Shown: positions 1 through 5,889 of the stretch, piece by piece
How the letters are laid out: each line of letters opens with the position of its first letter
How positions within the stretch are numbered: the first letter of the stretch is position 1
Assembly (NCBI GenBank): GCA_027066325.1
Contig: JAMONY010000047.1
Coordinates: 1-32,043 of the forward strand
Reading direction: 5' to 3'
Length of the DNA stretch: 32,043 nt
DNA from: Helicobacteraceae bacterium
GTDB lineage: Bacteria > Campylobacterota > Campylobacteria > Campylobacterales > Sulfurimonadaceae
Position numbers and translations under genes: made by a program
The notes under the pieces: generated by a model
The model's database searches: none
What the model saw: the letters and a program-made list of their open reading frames with translations, nothing else
Told to the model about the DNA's origin: nothing

Positions 1-127
1 TTACATTTCCATCAGGTGCGGTTGTCCAAGTACCCTCGCCAGGAACTACTAAAGTATCATTGTAGCCATTGCCACTGCTATCAGTTGCAGTTGGATCTGT
101 AAATGAGATAGTACTTACATTTAGATC
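1..127 (-). repeat. CshA-type repeat segment, copy identical to 637-763
   Basis: Bases 1-127 equal 637-763 exactly; the first mismatch is at 128/764. Both encode the CshA-like fibril module with DPTATDSSGNGYNDT and VVPGEGTW. The repeat probably continues beyond the window edge. A diverged related module lies between the two at about 250-600. Confidence 0.9.
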
Positions 128-3100
128 ACCCTCTGGGTCTGTATCATTTGCTGATACTGGTATGGTTGCTGGAGTAGATGCTACACCTACTAGATTATCA
201 TCTGTTGCAACTGGGTTGCTTTGAGGATAGTCTATGCGTACTGTTGCTGGGTCAGATGTTAAGCCTGAGTTATCATCTACTATGTAGGTGATTGGTGTAG
301 GATCACCTGTGAATGTTGGTAGTGGTGTAAATGTGATACTACCATTGTTCTCTACACTCCAAGTACCCTCATTAGGAACAACTAGTGTTGTTACAGGTAG
401 AGCTGGATTGTTAGGGTCTGTAATAAGTACAGTTGCTGGGTCTGTATCGTTTGAGTCATTACCCAACACATCTATAGTTACTGGATTACCAGTTGTACCA
501 GTTGCGTTGTCATCTACTGCTACTGGTGGGTATGTTAGTGTAATAGTAGCTATATTAGATACTAGATCTGTGCCATCAGTTATGTTGTAATCAACTGATG
601 AAGGATCATCTATAAATGTTGGTAGTGGTGTAAATGTTACATTTCCATCAGGTGCGGTTGTCCAAGTACCCTCGCCAGGAACTACTAAAGTATCATTGTA
701 GCCATTGCCACTGCTATCAGTTGCAGTTGGATCTGTAAATGAGATAGTACTTACATTTAGATCGCCATTAAGATCTGTATCGTTTGCTGATACTGGCACT
801 ACAGTTGGTGTAGATGTTATACCCGTCACATTATCATCTATTGCTACTGGAGGGTGGTTTACAAAGATAGTAGCATTATTGTCTATCTTGGCGCATACGA
901 TAGCAGAGTGTGTAATAAGCAAATTGTAAACATTGTCATCTAGACCTGTTACATCGCTTATAGCTAGAGTGTCTGTATTTACTCCACTATATACACCCCC
1001 ATCTAGCAGGTCAAGAAAAGTAACTCCTCCATCTGTGCTTACTTGCCACTGATACAGAAGGTCTCCAGATGTGTCTACTGCTGGTGGCATAGTATAATCT
1101 GGCACTCCAGGTACGGTGTAAGTTGTTGTACTCTGAGCTGTTGCAGAGGTGATGCTCAATGTTGTTGCACTACCTACAGTTACATTTTGATCTACTAATG
1201 CTGTAGCGTTAACATCTACTTGAGTAGCTGTTACCACATTGGTATTTGTTGCTGGGACATTTGTGTATGCGTCTGCTGAGCCATTAATTCCCGCTGCTAT
1301 AACCAAGCCATTAACATTAACATCTACAGATTCAACAACTCCTCCGTAAGTGCCATCTGAATTAGAGTCTGTACCAGAGGCACCATAGGCCTCATCTGCA
1401 TCTGGACAACCATCATTATCTGAATCTGTATCAAAACTGTCGATAATACCATCTTGATCTGTATCTGGGCAACCTAAGATCACCTGTTGATCATCCACAA
1501 ATACTGCAGGAGAGAGAACATATCCTGTAATACCGCCTCTTTTTAAAACATTAAACTCTACCGAATCTACAAAACCCAACTCCGTTGTTACCCATAGGTT
1601 TTGATCAGGTGGGCTTCCAAATGTATTTGTACTAAAATTAACATAAGTCCCCGCATCACCAAAAAATGAGCTTGAAGTCTCGGTTAAAGATATGTTTGAT
1701 AGAGGTGAAACAGAGGTGCGGTAAGCATAGATATCCGACTTGAGTAGCTCAACACCTTCACCAGGTGCTGTATTGTCGATATCTTTAAATGTAAAACCTG
1801 CCTCAATTGTCATTGGTGTAGTTGTACCTGTCTCAAAAAATTCTGCCAAAAACTTAACAGCAGAGCCGCTACCTGGGTTATTTAAAAAGATTGGAAAATA
1901 GTATCCACCACTCACCACTCCACTGATATTAACATTTGGAGCAGGACTCTCAATCTGTGCTACAGTCAACTTGACATCAAATGCTTGCCCCTCATAAATA
2001 CCTACATTGGTATATAGTGCTGTATCATTAAGACCATTTGGTTGTCCGCTATCTGTAAATGTAAGTGATGCTTGAGAGAGAGCAAAAAGTGTTGGCTTCA
2101 CATAATTAAGTCCGGTTTTTCCGCCTCTACAACCCTCTTCTGTATCTAAAATACCATCATTATCATCATCTAAATCTATCACATCTGGCACACCATCTCC
2201 ATCGTTGTCTGGTGCTGCCACATCGATAGTAGCTGTTGCAGTATCACAGATTGCTTGACTTGGTGCATTAAGACAGATCTGATAGACGATATCGTGATTG
2301 CCAGGTGCCAAACCTGCTGGTACTGTTATGATACCTGCTGAGTCTATGCTCATGCCTGCTGGTACTACTCCACCATCAAAGCTCTGTATGCTTATGTTGT
2401 CATTGATGTTTGCATCTGTTGCCGCTGAGCCATCTGAATCATCTGTACCATTTGCATTATCTGCAAAAACAGTTGTAGTAGTACCACCGTTTGAGTCGAT
2501 AGGCGTAGCTGTTAGATTGTCATCTACTGCGGTTATAGTAGGTACTAAACAGTATTTGATAGGTCCTAAAGTAACACCATTTGATCTATTTCTATTTGGT
2601 GCTGTCTTTGAAGATGCTATATTGTCTATCTCAATTCTCTTGAAGATTATCTTTCTAAAACCTGCACCATTCTCTATAGTTAGAGTGCCTCCGTCATTGC
2701 CAGCTGCTGTGTACGAAATACCGCCTCTTACCTCACGCGTTGAAGCATCAAGTAGCACATCTCCAGATGCTGTAAATGCAAAGATAGTTGAAGAGCTAAT
2801 GTCTGTTCCCAAGCCATCTTCAACTCTAACAATTTTAATCCTCTCATCTCCATCTATGTTAAAGTTTAGAGCCGCAAACGATAACTGCGTCTGAATAACA
2901 TCACCTGAGAAAGTCATCTCATATGTCTCTTCATCTAGACCCTGATTTGCCCATTTTGCAGGATACAGATCATCAGATCCTAACCAGATTCCACTAACGG
3001 GTGCCCAAGCAGTAGGTGCTCCATTAAGAGGTGCTGAGCTACCTCCAACAGAGTCTAAGCCTGCTGTTTTTGCAAAGATCATATCCATCCCTACTACACC

Positions 3101-4414
3101 TGCTGCACTAATAAAGGTTTTGCTAAGCTGTCCATTATAAGTTCCGCCATCATAAAGCTCTGCTATAGTCATCTCATTCTCTGTACAAGCAGTTGGCACA
3201 CCTATAACCAATGGTATATCTGTTACTACCTTGATAGTAGCTGTTGCAGTATCACAGATTGCTTGACTTGGTGCATTAAGACAGATCTGATAGACGATAT
3301 CGTGATTGCCAGGTGCCAAACCTGCTGGTACTGTTATGATACCTGCTGAGTCTATGCTCATGCCTGCTGGTACTACTCCACCATCAAAGCTCTGTATGCT
3401 TATGTTGTCATTGATGTTTGCATCTGTTGCCGCTGAGCCATCTGAATCATCTGTACCATTTGCATTATCTGCAAAAACAGTTGTAGTAGTACCACCGTTT
3501 GAGTCGATAGGCGTAGCTGTTAGATTGTCATCTACTGCGGTTATAGTCTGCGCATTCATAGTCATGCCTATAAGCATAACATCCGCACCACCATTAATGA
3601 TAACACCGTTACTTCCGCTAACTCTTAGGTAGACTTTAAACTTAATGTTTGATAAATTAGATCCTGTCACTAAGACACTACCACTACCAGCTCTTGAAGT
3701 CTCAGCACCACCATGACTATTGCCATTGGAGTTGATAATACGATTGCCACCTACTACACCAAGTCTACTATTGCTAGATAGTCCAGTTAGTGTAATATTT
3801 GGTGTAATAAGCTCAAACTCCAAAGAGAAGTTAGAGTTAAAAAAGCCAACATTTCTATTGCCTCCTGTATTGATCAAATGAAATACTGGGTCAGTTACTG
3901 GTTCTGAAAAAATAAACTCAATGTCTCCAACATAGTGTGTGCCATTGTTTGATGCTCCACCACTACGCAGACCATTTGTTCTTACTTCAAACTCTGTCAA
4001 ATAGTTGCTATTTCTACTAATCCCAGTCCCTACTGCTACAGTTGGGCTAGATGTATAAAAGCTATTGTTGGTATTGCCAAAAGTAGCGTCCATTCTCTGA
4101 AAGAGCCTAGATCCTCCGCCAAATATGGAGCCAAATGCCATAACATCTGTGCCTCCACCAAACTGAATGTTAGACATTCTAATGGTCTGTGTGATTGGTG
4201 GTGATGTTAAAGTCTGAGTATTTCCAAATGGATTATCAGAGTTTATTGCATATGTCACTATCTGGTCTGCCTGTGAAGGACCGTTTATGTTTGTTGCTGC
4301 TCCATTAGAAAAGGTCTCCAATGTTGGCGTAGCATATAGCTGGCTGACATTCAAAAAACCAACTGCTAAAAAAAGCAGAAACATGGTTCGTCTGAACTGA
4401 GTGGTTGTTTTCAT
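1..4414 (-). CDS. Giant secreted repeat protein (adhesin/fibril-like), 3' end beyond window
   Basis: I translated this frame by hand; it is open from ATG 4414 to base 1 (about 1471 codons) with no stop, so the gene is cut by the window edge. Residues 1-28 form a signal peptide (basic start, hydrophobic core, predicted cut after LYA). Residues about 29-289 are a Gly/Asn/Ser-rich beta-type region. Residues 290-394 and 626-730 are identical 105-residue repeats opening with ITAVDDNLTATP. Asp-rich thrombospondin-type-3-like segments follow at about 735-765 (containing DGDGVPDVIDLDDDNDG) and 980-1010. An Ig-like stretch (LLYQWQVSTDGG) comes next, then from about residue 1180 tandem CshA-type fibril repeats with VVPGEGTW, FTPLPTF and VAVDDN. 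Known proteins with this make-up are secreted or surface-anchored calcium-binding adhesins; the secretion route cannot be told without the C terminus. GGGG lies before the ATG. It is transcribed away from dapC. Confidence 0.9.
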   Translation of the reverse strand, partial: MKTTTQFRRTMFLLFLAVGFLNVSQLYATPTLETFSNGAATNINGPSQADQIVTYAINSDNPFGNTQTLTSPPITQTIRMSNIQFGGGTDVMAFGSIFGGGSRLFQRMDATFGNTNNSFYTSSPTVAVGTGISRNSNYLTEFEVRTNGLRSGGASNNGTHYVGDIEFIFSEPVTDPVFHLINTGGNRNVGFFNSNFSLEFELITPNITLTGLSSNSRLGVVGGNRIINSNGNSHGGAETSRAGSGSVLVTGSNLSNIKFKVYLRVSGSNGVIINGGADVMLIGMTMNAQTITAVDDNLTATPIDSNGGTTTTVFADNANGTDDSDGSAATDANINDNISIQSFDGGVVPAGMSIDSAGIITVPAGLAPGNHDIVYQICLNAPSQAICDTATATIKVVTDIPLVIGVPTACTENEMTIAELYDGGTYNGQLSKTFISAAGVVGMDMIFAKTAGLDSVGGSSAPLNGAPTAWAPVSGIWLGSDDLYPAKWANQGLDEETYEMTFSGDVIQTQLSFAALNFNIDGDERIKIVRVEDGLGTDISSSTIFAFTASGDVLLDASTREVRGGISYTAAGNDGGTLTIENGAGFRKIIFKRIEIDNIASSKTAPNRNRSNGVTLGPIKYCLVPTITAVDDNLTATPIDSNGGTTTTVFADNANGTDDSDGSAATDANINDNISIQSFDGGVVPAGMSIDSAGIITVPAGLAPGNHDIVYQICLNAPSQAICDTATATIDVAAPDNDGDGVPDVIDLDDDNDGILDTEEGCRGGKTGLNYVKPTLFALSQASLTFTDSGQPNGLNDTALYTNVGIYEGQAFDVKLTVAQIESPAPNVNISGVVSGGYYFPIFLNNPGSGSAVKFLAEFFETGTTTPMTIEAGFTFKDIDNTAPGEGVELLKSDIYAYRTSVSPLSNISLTETSSSFFGDAGTYVNFSTNTFGSPPDQNLWVTTELGFVDSVEFNVLKRGGITGYVLSPAVFVDDQQVILGCPDTDQDGIIDSFDTDSDNDGCPDADEAYGASGTDSNSDGTYGGVVESVDVNVNGLVIAAGINGSADAYTNVPATNTNVVTATQVDVNATALVDQNVTVGSATTLSITSATAQSTTTYTVPGVPDYTMPPAVDTSGDLLYQWQVSTDGGVTFLDLLDGGVYSGVNTDTLAISDVTGLDDNVYNLLITHSAIVCAKIDNNATIFVNHPPVAIDDNVTGITSTPTVVPVSANDTDLNGDLNVSTISFTDPTATDSSGNGYNDTLVVPGEGTWTTAPDGNVTFTPLPTFIDDPSSVDYNITDGTDLVSNIATITLTYPPVAVDDNATGTTGNPVTIDVLGNDSNDTDPATVLITDPNNPALPVTTLVVPNEGTWSVENNGSITFTPLPTFTGDPTPITYIVDDNSGLTSDPATVRIDYPQSNPVATDDNLVGVASTPATIPVSANDTDPEGDLNVSTISFTDPTATDSSGNGYNDTLVVPGEGTWTTAPDGNV
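637..763 (-). repeat. CshA-type repeat segment, upstream copy
   Basis: Partner of the 1-127 repeat, offset by 636 bases (212 codons), so reading frame is kept. Downstream of the identical part the copies remain similar but accumulate substitutions. Confidence 0.9.
2225..2539 (-). repeat. 315-bp exact direct repeat, copy 2
   Basis: Second copy of the 315-bp module, encoding residues 626-730 of the giant surface protein. Identity including silent positions points to recent duplication or gene conversion. Confidence 0.95.
3233..3547 (-). repeat. 315-bp exact direct repeat, copy 1
   Basis: Base-for-base comparison by eye shows this segment is identical to 2225-2539, at an in-frame offset of 1008 bases. 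It encodes residues 290-394 of the giant surface protein, running from ITAVDDN to TATATI. Flanking sequence diverges at once on both sides, so the identity is confined to one protein module. Confidence 0.95.
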
Positions 4415-4752
4415 CTTAGTGTTCCCCGAGTTTTGTAAAGTACAGCATCTATTAATCTTTTTAATCATACGGCTCTAATTTCTTAAAAAACCAAACTATT
4501 TGACTAATTAAATACTTTCACAAAGTTTACACAGGTAGTCTTAAAATATATTTAAGTTAACCTATTGTCAATGATTAAAGTCAAGAATGCTACCAATCGC
4601 CACACTGCCTATCTTTGCCGATGCAAATGGGCAACTTACTAATGATAAACTTCACTCCAATATAGGTTGAGAGATTATGATAAAGTGCTCTTAAATATAT
4701 ATCGCTAGCAATAGATATTGTATTGATCAAATTAATTGGTATAATTGCACCC
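4415..4752. other. Intergenic region between the surface protein and dapC
   Basis: This 338-bp AT-rich spacer separates two divergently transcribed genes. On the minus strand there is a candidate promoter for the surface protein: TTGACA at 4566-4571 and TATTTT at 4543-4548, 17 bases apart. The -10 lies inside a perfect 6-bp-arm palindrome at 4540-4556 (CTTAAA, 5 bases, TTTAAG). This would give an unusually long leader of about 120 bases. A nearer alternative -10 is TATGAT around 4465-4470. On the plus strand 4587-4670 could encode a 27-residue peptide beginning MLPIATLPIFADANG, with only a weak ribosome site; I do not claim it as a gene. The dapC promoter lies at the right end. Confidence 0.5.
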
Positions 4753-4754
4753 AT
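4721..4754 (+). promoter_or_regulatory. dapC promoter with shared 34-bp motif; predicted leaderless start
   Basis: TATTGATC at 4721-4728, an 11-base spacer, then TATAATTGCACCCAT ending on the first bases of the dapC ATG. The -10 TATAAT (4740-4745) is only 7 bases from the ATG at 4753, so transcription would begin at or next to the start codon. The same composite motif occurs on the minus strand at 18509-18542, with 27 of 34 positions identical. Confidence 0.65.
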
Positions 4755-5889
4755 GATTGATTTTGAAACATACCCATTTGAAAAATTAGAGATACTACTT
4801 GATGGTACAGCACCAGATAGTACCTATGAGCCCCTTACACTAACGGTTGGTGAGCCACAATCTCAAACACCAAAGTTCATACAAGATGAGCTATGCAACA
4901 GCAGTAGCCTCTTAAATAGATACCCAGCAACCGCTGGAGAGCGTGCCCTTAATGACTCCATGATGGAGTTTGTTAAGAGACGCTTTGGTGTTGACCTTAA
5001 AGATAGTGAGCTTCTTAGTACACTTGGTACAAGAGAGGTGCTTTTTAATTTTCCACAACACCTCCTCTTTGGCAAAGATAGGGCTGTCATGGCGTATACA
5101 AATCCATTTTACCAGATATATGAAGGGGCTGCTAAAGCTAGTGGAGCAGAGGTTTTTCACCTCGATCTTACCAAAGAAAACTCTTACAAACCAGACACAA
5201 GTGCAGAGTTTTTAAAAAAATGTGACCTTGTGATCCTCAACTTTCCAAACAATCCAACAGCTAGCATACTTAGCGTAAGTGAGCTTGAGAAGTGGGTAGA
5301 GTTGGCTTTAAAATTCGACTTTGTCTTACTGAATGATGAGTGTTATAGTGAGATATATCTAGATACACCTCCACCATCTCTACTAGAAGCTAGTCTAAAT
5401 ATCGGCAATAGCAACTTTAAAAATATCGTAGTTATAAACTCCATCTCAAAACGCTCATCCGCTCCTGGTCTTAGAAGTGGCTTTATAGCTGGAGATAGTG
5501 CCCTCTTGCACGGATATAAACGATATAGAACCTATGTAGGGTGTGCCTCTCCTATACCGCTACAAAGAGCTGCTACTCTAGCATGGAGTGATGATAAACA
5601 TGTGCAAAATGCACGCGAAACATATAGAGAAAACTTTAAATTGGCAAAAAAGATACTTGGCATAACACCACCAGATGCTACATTTTACATCTGGCTTAAG
5701 GTTGATAATGCACTAGAGTTTACACTAAAACTCTACAGAGAGTACAATCTTAAAGTACTACCAGGAGAGTATTTAAGCAGAGGAACTCATAAATTCAATA
5801 TTGGTAAAGACTATATCCGAATAGCTCTAGTAGACACACCAACACGAACAGAAGATGCGCTTATGCGCATAAAAGAGGCGCTATGTTAA
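4753..5889 (+). CDS. dapC: Succinyldiaminopimelate transaminase
   Basis: A fold-type I PLP aminotransferase that makes N-succinyl-L,L-diaminopimelate in the succinylase branch of lysine and peptidoglycan precursor synthesis. The 378-residue product carries DapC hallmarks: YPFEKL near the N terminus, TNPFYQIYEGAA, NNPT at 166-169, NDECYSE with the PLP-nitrogen Asp195, the Schiff-base lysine at 233 in SISKRSSAPGLRSGF, and RYRTYVGCASPIPLQ. I chose ATG 4753; an in-frame TTG at 4723 lies upstream of the -10 box and would add ten unrelated residues. The stop overlaps the next ATG by 7 bases, so it heads the operon with murC and mutS2. The next enzyme of the branch, DapE, is encoded at 11888. Family is confident; the exact acyl substrate is inferred. 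Confidence 0.9.
   Translation: MIDFETYPFEKLEILLDGTAPDSTYEPLTLTVGEPQSQTPKFIQDELCNSSSLLNRYPATAGERALNDSMMEFVKRRFGVDLKDSELLSTLGTREVLFNFPQHLLFGKDRAVMAYTNPFYQIYEGAAKASGAEVFHLDLTKENSYKPDTSAEFLKKCDLVILNFPNNPTASILSVSELEKWVELALKFDFVLLNDECYSEIYLDTPPPSLLEASLNIGNSNFKNIVVINSISKRSSAPGLRSGFIAGDSALLHGYKRYRTYVGCASPIPLQRAATLAWSDDKHVQNARETYRENFKLAKKILGITPPDATFYIWLKVDNALEFTLKLYREYNLKVLPGEYLSRGTHKFNIGKDYIRIALVDTPTRTEDALMRIKEALC

Follow-up and report, generated by a model that had tools for sequence, protein, structure and literature searches.

The window, which is the whole stretch of DNA analysed here (32,043 bases), is one entire contig of a host genome of 1,692,674 bases in 82 contigs. Its left end carries an adhesin-like gene, the parts of which are collected in Table 1. 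The initial annotation had called the product a giant surface protein. As the frame is cut by the contig end, "giant" here stands for at least 1489 aa.

Table 1. Features of the adhesin gene and of the adjoining contig end; positions refer to the window.
Feature	Position	Strand	Basis
Open frame, modular secreted or surface protein, at least 1489 aa	2..4468	-	ORF reading; 3' part cut by contig end
Signal-peptide-like segment (aa 19-46), read from an internal ATG	4331..4414	-	By-eye reading of sequence
N-terminal domain X1; Pfam: no match (query 3548-4468)	3548..4330	-	Pfam profile search
Module copy R1, aa 308-412, 105 codons	3233..3547	-	Exact repeat, fold model, relatives
Domain X2, 231 aa, between R1 and R2; Pfam: no match	2540..3232	-	Pfam profile search
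Module copy R2, aa 644-748, DNA identical to R1	2225..2539	-	Exact repeat
DxDxDG-rich stretches and a domain (aa 750-1072) 31% to a Winogradskyella jejuensis giant protein	1253..2224	-	Protein match
CshA-type repeats running off the contig	2..889	-	PF19076 E 1.4e-19; TIGR04225 E 1.5e-19
Second identical tract, equal to 1-127 at an offset of 636; lies in adjacent CshA-type repeats	637..763	.	Self-comparison
Contig end coinciding exactly with a repeated word of 127 nt (fork in the graph of a k=127 assembly)	1..127	.	Contig-end word test

Self-comparison of the window showed a single uninterrupted 315-nt match between R1 and R2 at an offset of 1008, with mismatches immediately beyond both ends. 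As 1008 = 336 × 3, the repeat is in frame, and both copies encode the same 105 residues. The initial annotation was thus correct that two 105-codon copies 1008 bases apart are identical including silent positions, and that recombination between them would delete 336 codons in frame. Under the codon usage of this gene, the chance that the same protein would be written in the same codons twice is ~10^-38, which excludes convergence and indicates common descent. The 0 differences in 315 nt set a 95% upper bound on divergence of ~0.95% overall and ~3.9% at silent sites.

The sequences around the copies gave a different picture from the one proposed initially, in which the flanking modules were fully diverged. 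The 300-nt flanks match at 82/300 (27.3%) and 80/300 (26.7%), which is chance level, and X1 and X2 have no detectable similarity (BLASTP E 3.5). The flanks are not sister modules; the copies bracket an unrelated domain of 231 residues. We also considered a diverged tandem duplication, in which X1-R1 and X2-R2 would be old sister units and conversion would be proven. It is unsupported, given the result for X1 and X2. Because these domains are unlike, the older history is unreadable, and duplication is indistinguishable from conversion of older copies. The adhesin gene also contains the second identical tract of 127 nt and one 23-nt run, while no exact direct repeat of 20 nt or more occurs in the remaining 27.6 kb of the window. 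The concentration of all three within 4.5 kb suggests that the recombination is linked to the modular gene.

The limits of the module were taken from an alignment of the R unit with 23 hand-picked relatives, in which both boundaries of the 315-nt unit fall close to those of the matched module in the related proteins. At locus L008, R-type modules stand in tandem, joined by short linkers. The predicted structure of the R module was a confident beta-sandwich (pLDDT 92.9, pTM 0.84). Foldseek found no match for this model at E <= 0.001, the best being a Rib domain (E 9.1e-3, TM 0.44). VIA-align gave a Z value of 8.6 for part of MpAFP and ~7–8 for many cadherin domains. Since such Z values are common, we limit the claim on the fold to a cadherin/Rib-like beta-sandwich, and each copy is, as modelled and with limits drawn from the relatives, one complete module of this kind. 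The model of X2 was unusable (mean pLDDT 35.9, from a single sequence).

Like the CshA-type fibrillar adhesins (PF19076, TIGR04225), the known part of the protein has repeats at its carboxy side that score above the curated cut-offs of both profiles. Unlike in that class, no Pfam family exceeds its cut-off for the duplicated R module. The CshA-type repeats match W. jejuensis and W. wandonensis at 41–46%, and like stretches within this part are 89% alike over 214 nt. We take CshA_repeat to be a stalk domain and the DxDxDG-rich stretches to be thrombospondin-3-like. Pfam also placed Big_9 above cut-off in the 1489-aa frame, a family named among the stalk domains of fibrillar adhesin-like proteins in excerpts of PMC8286594. 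No known adhesive domain appeared among the Pfam matches to the 1489 aa available of this incomplete protein. Searches of the host assembly with the CshA profile, the last 633 aa and the terminal 127-mer found no 3' continuation of the gene, which parts of the genome reading N could hide. A third PF19076 match in the host genome, under the cut-off, was considered as the missing gene end and rejected, as it sits in another, presumably subtilase-like protein on another contig. The host genome encodes, in a minus-strand frame (L078), a protein of 1131 aa that is presumably subtilase-like, with a leucine-rich-repeat-like part.

The contig breaks off inside the gene, so we inspected what the assembly can tell. 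Bases 1–127 recur in the second tract, and the next base differs. We examined 113 of the 164 contig ends of the genome; eight read N and 105 were readable. Exactly 127 nt were shared with other examined DNA of the genome at 35 of the 105 readable ends, another length at four (38, 70, 126 and 153), and no terminal word of 20 nt at 66. In the control, 22 of 2000 random internal 127-mers recurred, draws with N being counted as no hit. The host assembly is of the short-read de Bruijn type with k=127, a pattern that we take to be that of SPAdes-type assembly. In a random-letter model, an arrangement with a single [X2-R] unit and one with two gave identical 127-mer sets, which also contained every 127-mer of the deleted form. 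As the 315-nt repeat is longer than the 127-nt word, the junctions are supported and the number of units is not fixed. A mixed population could look the same in such a draft assembly.

These properties bear on the zero differences between the copies, which could be partly an assembly product, slightly different copies having been merged into one path, with the number of units being a minimum. The contig-end counts and the equal 127-mer sets speak for this, as do excerpts of two papers, according to which metaSPAdes collapses bulges (PMC8021871) and the graph alone does not resolve repeats longer than the word (PMC6868369). Bulge collapsing could have merged a few real differences between R1 and R2, and hence the zero is not firm. 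However, a path of this kind should be built only if reads span the junctions of both copies, and a false duplication from nothing is improbable. We regard this reading as unlikely. The recent duplication or gene conversion invoked by the initial annotation is the natural reading of 0/315 differences, with the reservation that a k=127 assembly could have merged small ones. For draft genomes in general, exact repeats longer than the assembly word show a minimum number of units, and copies that look "identical" may owe this in part to the assembler.

To place the module among its relatives, we scanned genome contigs and found four loci (of 133 stretches matching the pattern), all in Flavobacteriaceae and 50–63% identical. 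We take loci L008–L011 to be SprB-like, gliding-motility-associated giant proteins of this family (T9SS), with which the window protein thus shares a homologous R module. At L009 and L011, CshA-type repeats and a DxDxDG part occur in the same region as the R module. The module matched at E <= 0.001 in 42 of 397 genomes of the W. jejuensis family, a set that includes W. jejuensis itself and is not a blind sample. As to the C-terminal secretion signal of the SprB-like proteins, TIGR04131 had 0 matches in the host genome, in which the adhesin C-terminus is missing. X2 was not found in the 397 Flavobacteriaceae genomes, in a search run without a positive control. Among the relatives of the host, the module matched in one of 99, weakly (E 8.7e-4). 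The R1-X2-R2 stretch matched in none of 227 other genomes of the host family (a set overlapping with the 99), and the N-terminal 820 aa in none of 59 relatives. Six stretches of viral contigs matched a pattern, none of which was confirmed as a relative.

The neighbourhood of the gene was compared in seven congeners. Five of them keep the dapC-murC-mutS2 order, with no match to the adhesin gene in the stretch fetched. In two of these five, those with upstream ORFs listed, a regulator gene, presumably Crp-like, lies upstream of dapC. The host itself, judging from its gene content, presumably belongs to Campylobacterota. The host lineage most likely gained the adhesin gene laterally, next to dapC; this is the simplest reading because loss in the relatives needs many events. 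GC content is ~40% in the host stretches looked at and 50–60% in the congeners. Five congeners (L079–L083) have ~60% GC, and the identity of their dapC protein to that of the host is only 62–63%, which describes a wide genus.

In the tree, R1 and R2 fell together within a 20-row set with a support of 100/99. The other rows are all Flavobacteriaceae, either named ones or ones drawn from the W. jejuensis family. Matches covering <91 residues of the query were left out of the set used for the tree and the identities, as were loci L065, L072 and L077; L075 and L076 entered as L036 and L041. The fork nearest to the window rows had a support of only 88/76. The R1/R2 end branch measures 0.47 changes per column, yet there are 0 differences between R1 and R2, which makes the copying recent relative to the split of the module from its sampled relatives.

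We then compared the repeats in the genes of the relatives, using 16 distinct module regions: four from the contig scan and 12 from the 42 matching genomes, picked because their matches were numerous or strong (a further region, L077, duplicates L010). In three of the 16, an exact direct repeat reached 315 nt or more (L011, 669 nt; L065, 674 nt; L074, 386 nt). The two copies of each such repeat share a single open frame, which also holds the module, and their offset is a multiple of three. The long exact repeat covers the module only at L065, those of L011 and L074 being elsewhere in the same frame. The module match of L065 is weak (31%, E 8.5e-4); its contig measures 2.61 Mb in a genome of 2.6 Mb, which makes a fragment artefact unlikely. 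The longest exact repeats of L008 and L009 measure 205 and 215 nt. An exact repeat of at least 100 nt was found in 10 of the 16 regions and none in six.

The DNA identity of modules within one gene ranged from 56% to 96.8% at nine other multi-copy loci, so that the 100% of the window is the top of a broad range. The best value reached at least 88% at four of the nine (L008, 88.6–96.8%; L011, 88.9%; L069, 93.7–95.1%; L070, up to 93.4%). It was 84–86% at L066 and L068, and <70% at L009, L067 and L071; homogenisation is therefore not universal. Such values also bear on a lateral arrival of the gene with its copies already identical, which would involve no recombination in the present host. Flavobacteriaceae genes do carry near-identical module copies and long exact repeats, as this reading needs, but the window rows sit on the long 0.47 branch, on which there is no sampled relative. 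The donor would thus be unsampled, and with these data such an arrival is inseparable from recombination in the host. We consider such an arrival distinctly unlikely.

With these comparisons at hand, we propose that the 315-nt duplication probably arose through ordinary intragenic recombination among adhesin stalk modules, without a dedicated device. The 315-nt unit would encode one complete stalk module of a modular surface adhesin. The modules, judging from the kind of protein, may be spacers by which ligand-binding domains are kept at a distance from the cell. In its module and in its thrombospondin-3-like and CshA-like parts, the adhesin resembles giant proteins of Flavobacteriaceae, and the gene would have entered the host lineage by lateral transfer. 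Homologous recombination within the gene, either through unequal crossing-over or through gene conversion, with the module ends as its limits, may recently have placed the same module on both sides of the unrelated X2, or made two copies alike. The potential 336-codon deletion would come as a by-product of having repeated modules rather than as a dedicated switch. One point against this explanation is that the absence of X2 from the Flavobacteriaceae searched leaves the donor of X2 unaccounted for. The locus is a clean example of how modular bacterial adhesins appear to exchange and homogenise their building blocks, here in a host of which almost none of the searched relatives has the module.

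Another alternative is a selected size-variation device, in which the identical flanks are maintained to let RecA-type recombination delete or multiply [X2-R] at a useful frequency. The in-frame 336-codon offset, the 315-nt identity and the second identical tract are consistent with it, and excerpts of PMC8201768 propose length variation as the purpose of the high DNA identity in such genes. However, the single genome at hand offers no length variant, the unique X2 domain would disappear in the event, the published class consists of tandem arrays while the copies here lie apart, and long exact repeats also occur in the genes of relatives. We judge a selected device to be very unlikely. Near-identical module copies are common in the relatives, so no special device is needed; the initial interpretation is supported in part. 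Phase variation, also suggested, fits poorly: the predicted event would be one-way and in frame and would cost the unique X2, and thus it should be neither an off-switch nor reversible in a cell. As X2 is single-copy, a cell cannot restore it after the deletion, which leaves size variation at most. In the furthest-reaching reading, the identical modules are the borders of a cassette: recombination removes or multiplies X2 with one stalk module, cells of one population show or lack X2, and a surface protein has crossed from Bacteroidota-type genes into another phylum. To this combination we likewise assign a very low probability. Should the units vary in nature, the locus would offer a test of domain loss by recombination outside the well-studied pathogens.

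The duplicated-module adhesin is a real and well-described kind of feature. The Periscope proteins, the closest concept, resemble the window in that a surface-type protein has folded modules identical in DNA, between which recombination would change the length in frame. According to excerpts of PMC8201768 and PMC9704523, high DNA identity between folded repeats enables intragenic recombination in these proteins, and the class is defined by tandem arrays together with population-level length variation. The 105-codon module, with its confident fold model, conforms to the class in being a folded repeat of >50 residues highly identical in DNA, subject to the caveat on assembly. In contrast, the identical domains are not in tandem, as the unrelated 231-aa domain separates them. 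Because of this arrangement, and because the data cover one genome per species, we do not file the window protein under the Periscope proteins, although it could work the same way. Among the titles listed by the literature searches, none concerned the adhesin gene itself.

Porphyromonas gingivalis HagA, Kgp and RgpA have modules that we take, as far as known, to be unrelated to the R module. The likeness lies in the identical repeats inside surface-protein genes, which break short-read contigs, according to excerpts of PMC5266723. The reference list of the same source includes a paper whose title names the variable repeat number of hagA. The variation there rests on strain comparison, unlike the window, which is one genome.

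By eye, no promoter-type switching tracts were evident upstream of the adhesin gene in 4480–4760, and promoter-like sites upstream of it numbered one versus 2.1 expected by chance. A short run of seven A at 4368–4374 (seven T on the coding strand) lies inside the part of the gene that encodes the signal peptide. The R module recurs in Flavobacteriaceae and its window copy has no Pfam family above cut-off, which makes it a candidate new domain family. Among 11 other host stretches of 20 kb each, the longest exact repeat measures 160 nt; it occurs in a single stretch and is in frame, inside an open frame composed of repeats. The next longest measures 41 nt. The 160-nt repeat, at an offset of 936, belongs to a 660-aa open frame (L114 2202–4181), presumably composed of NHL-like repeats.
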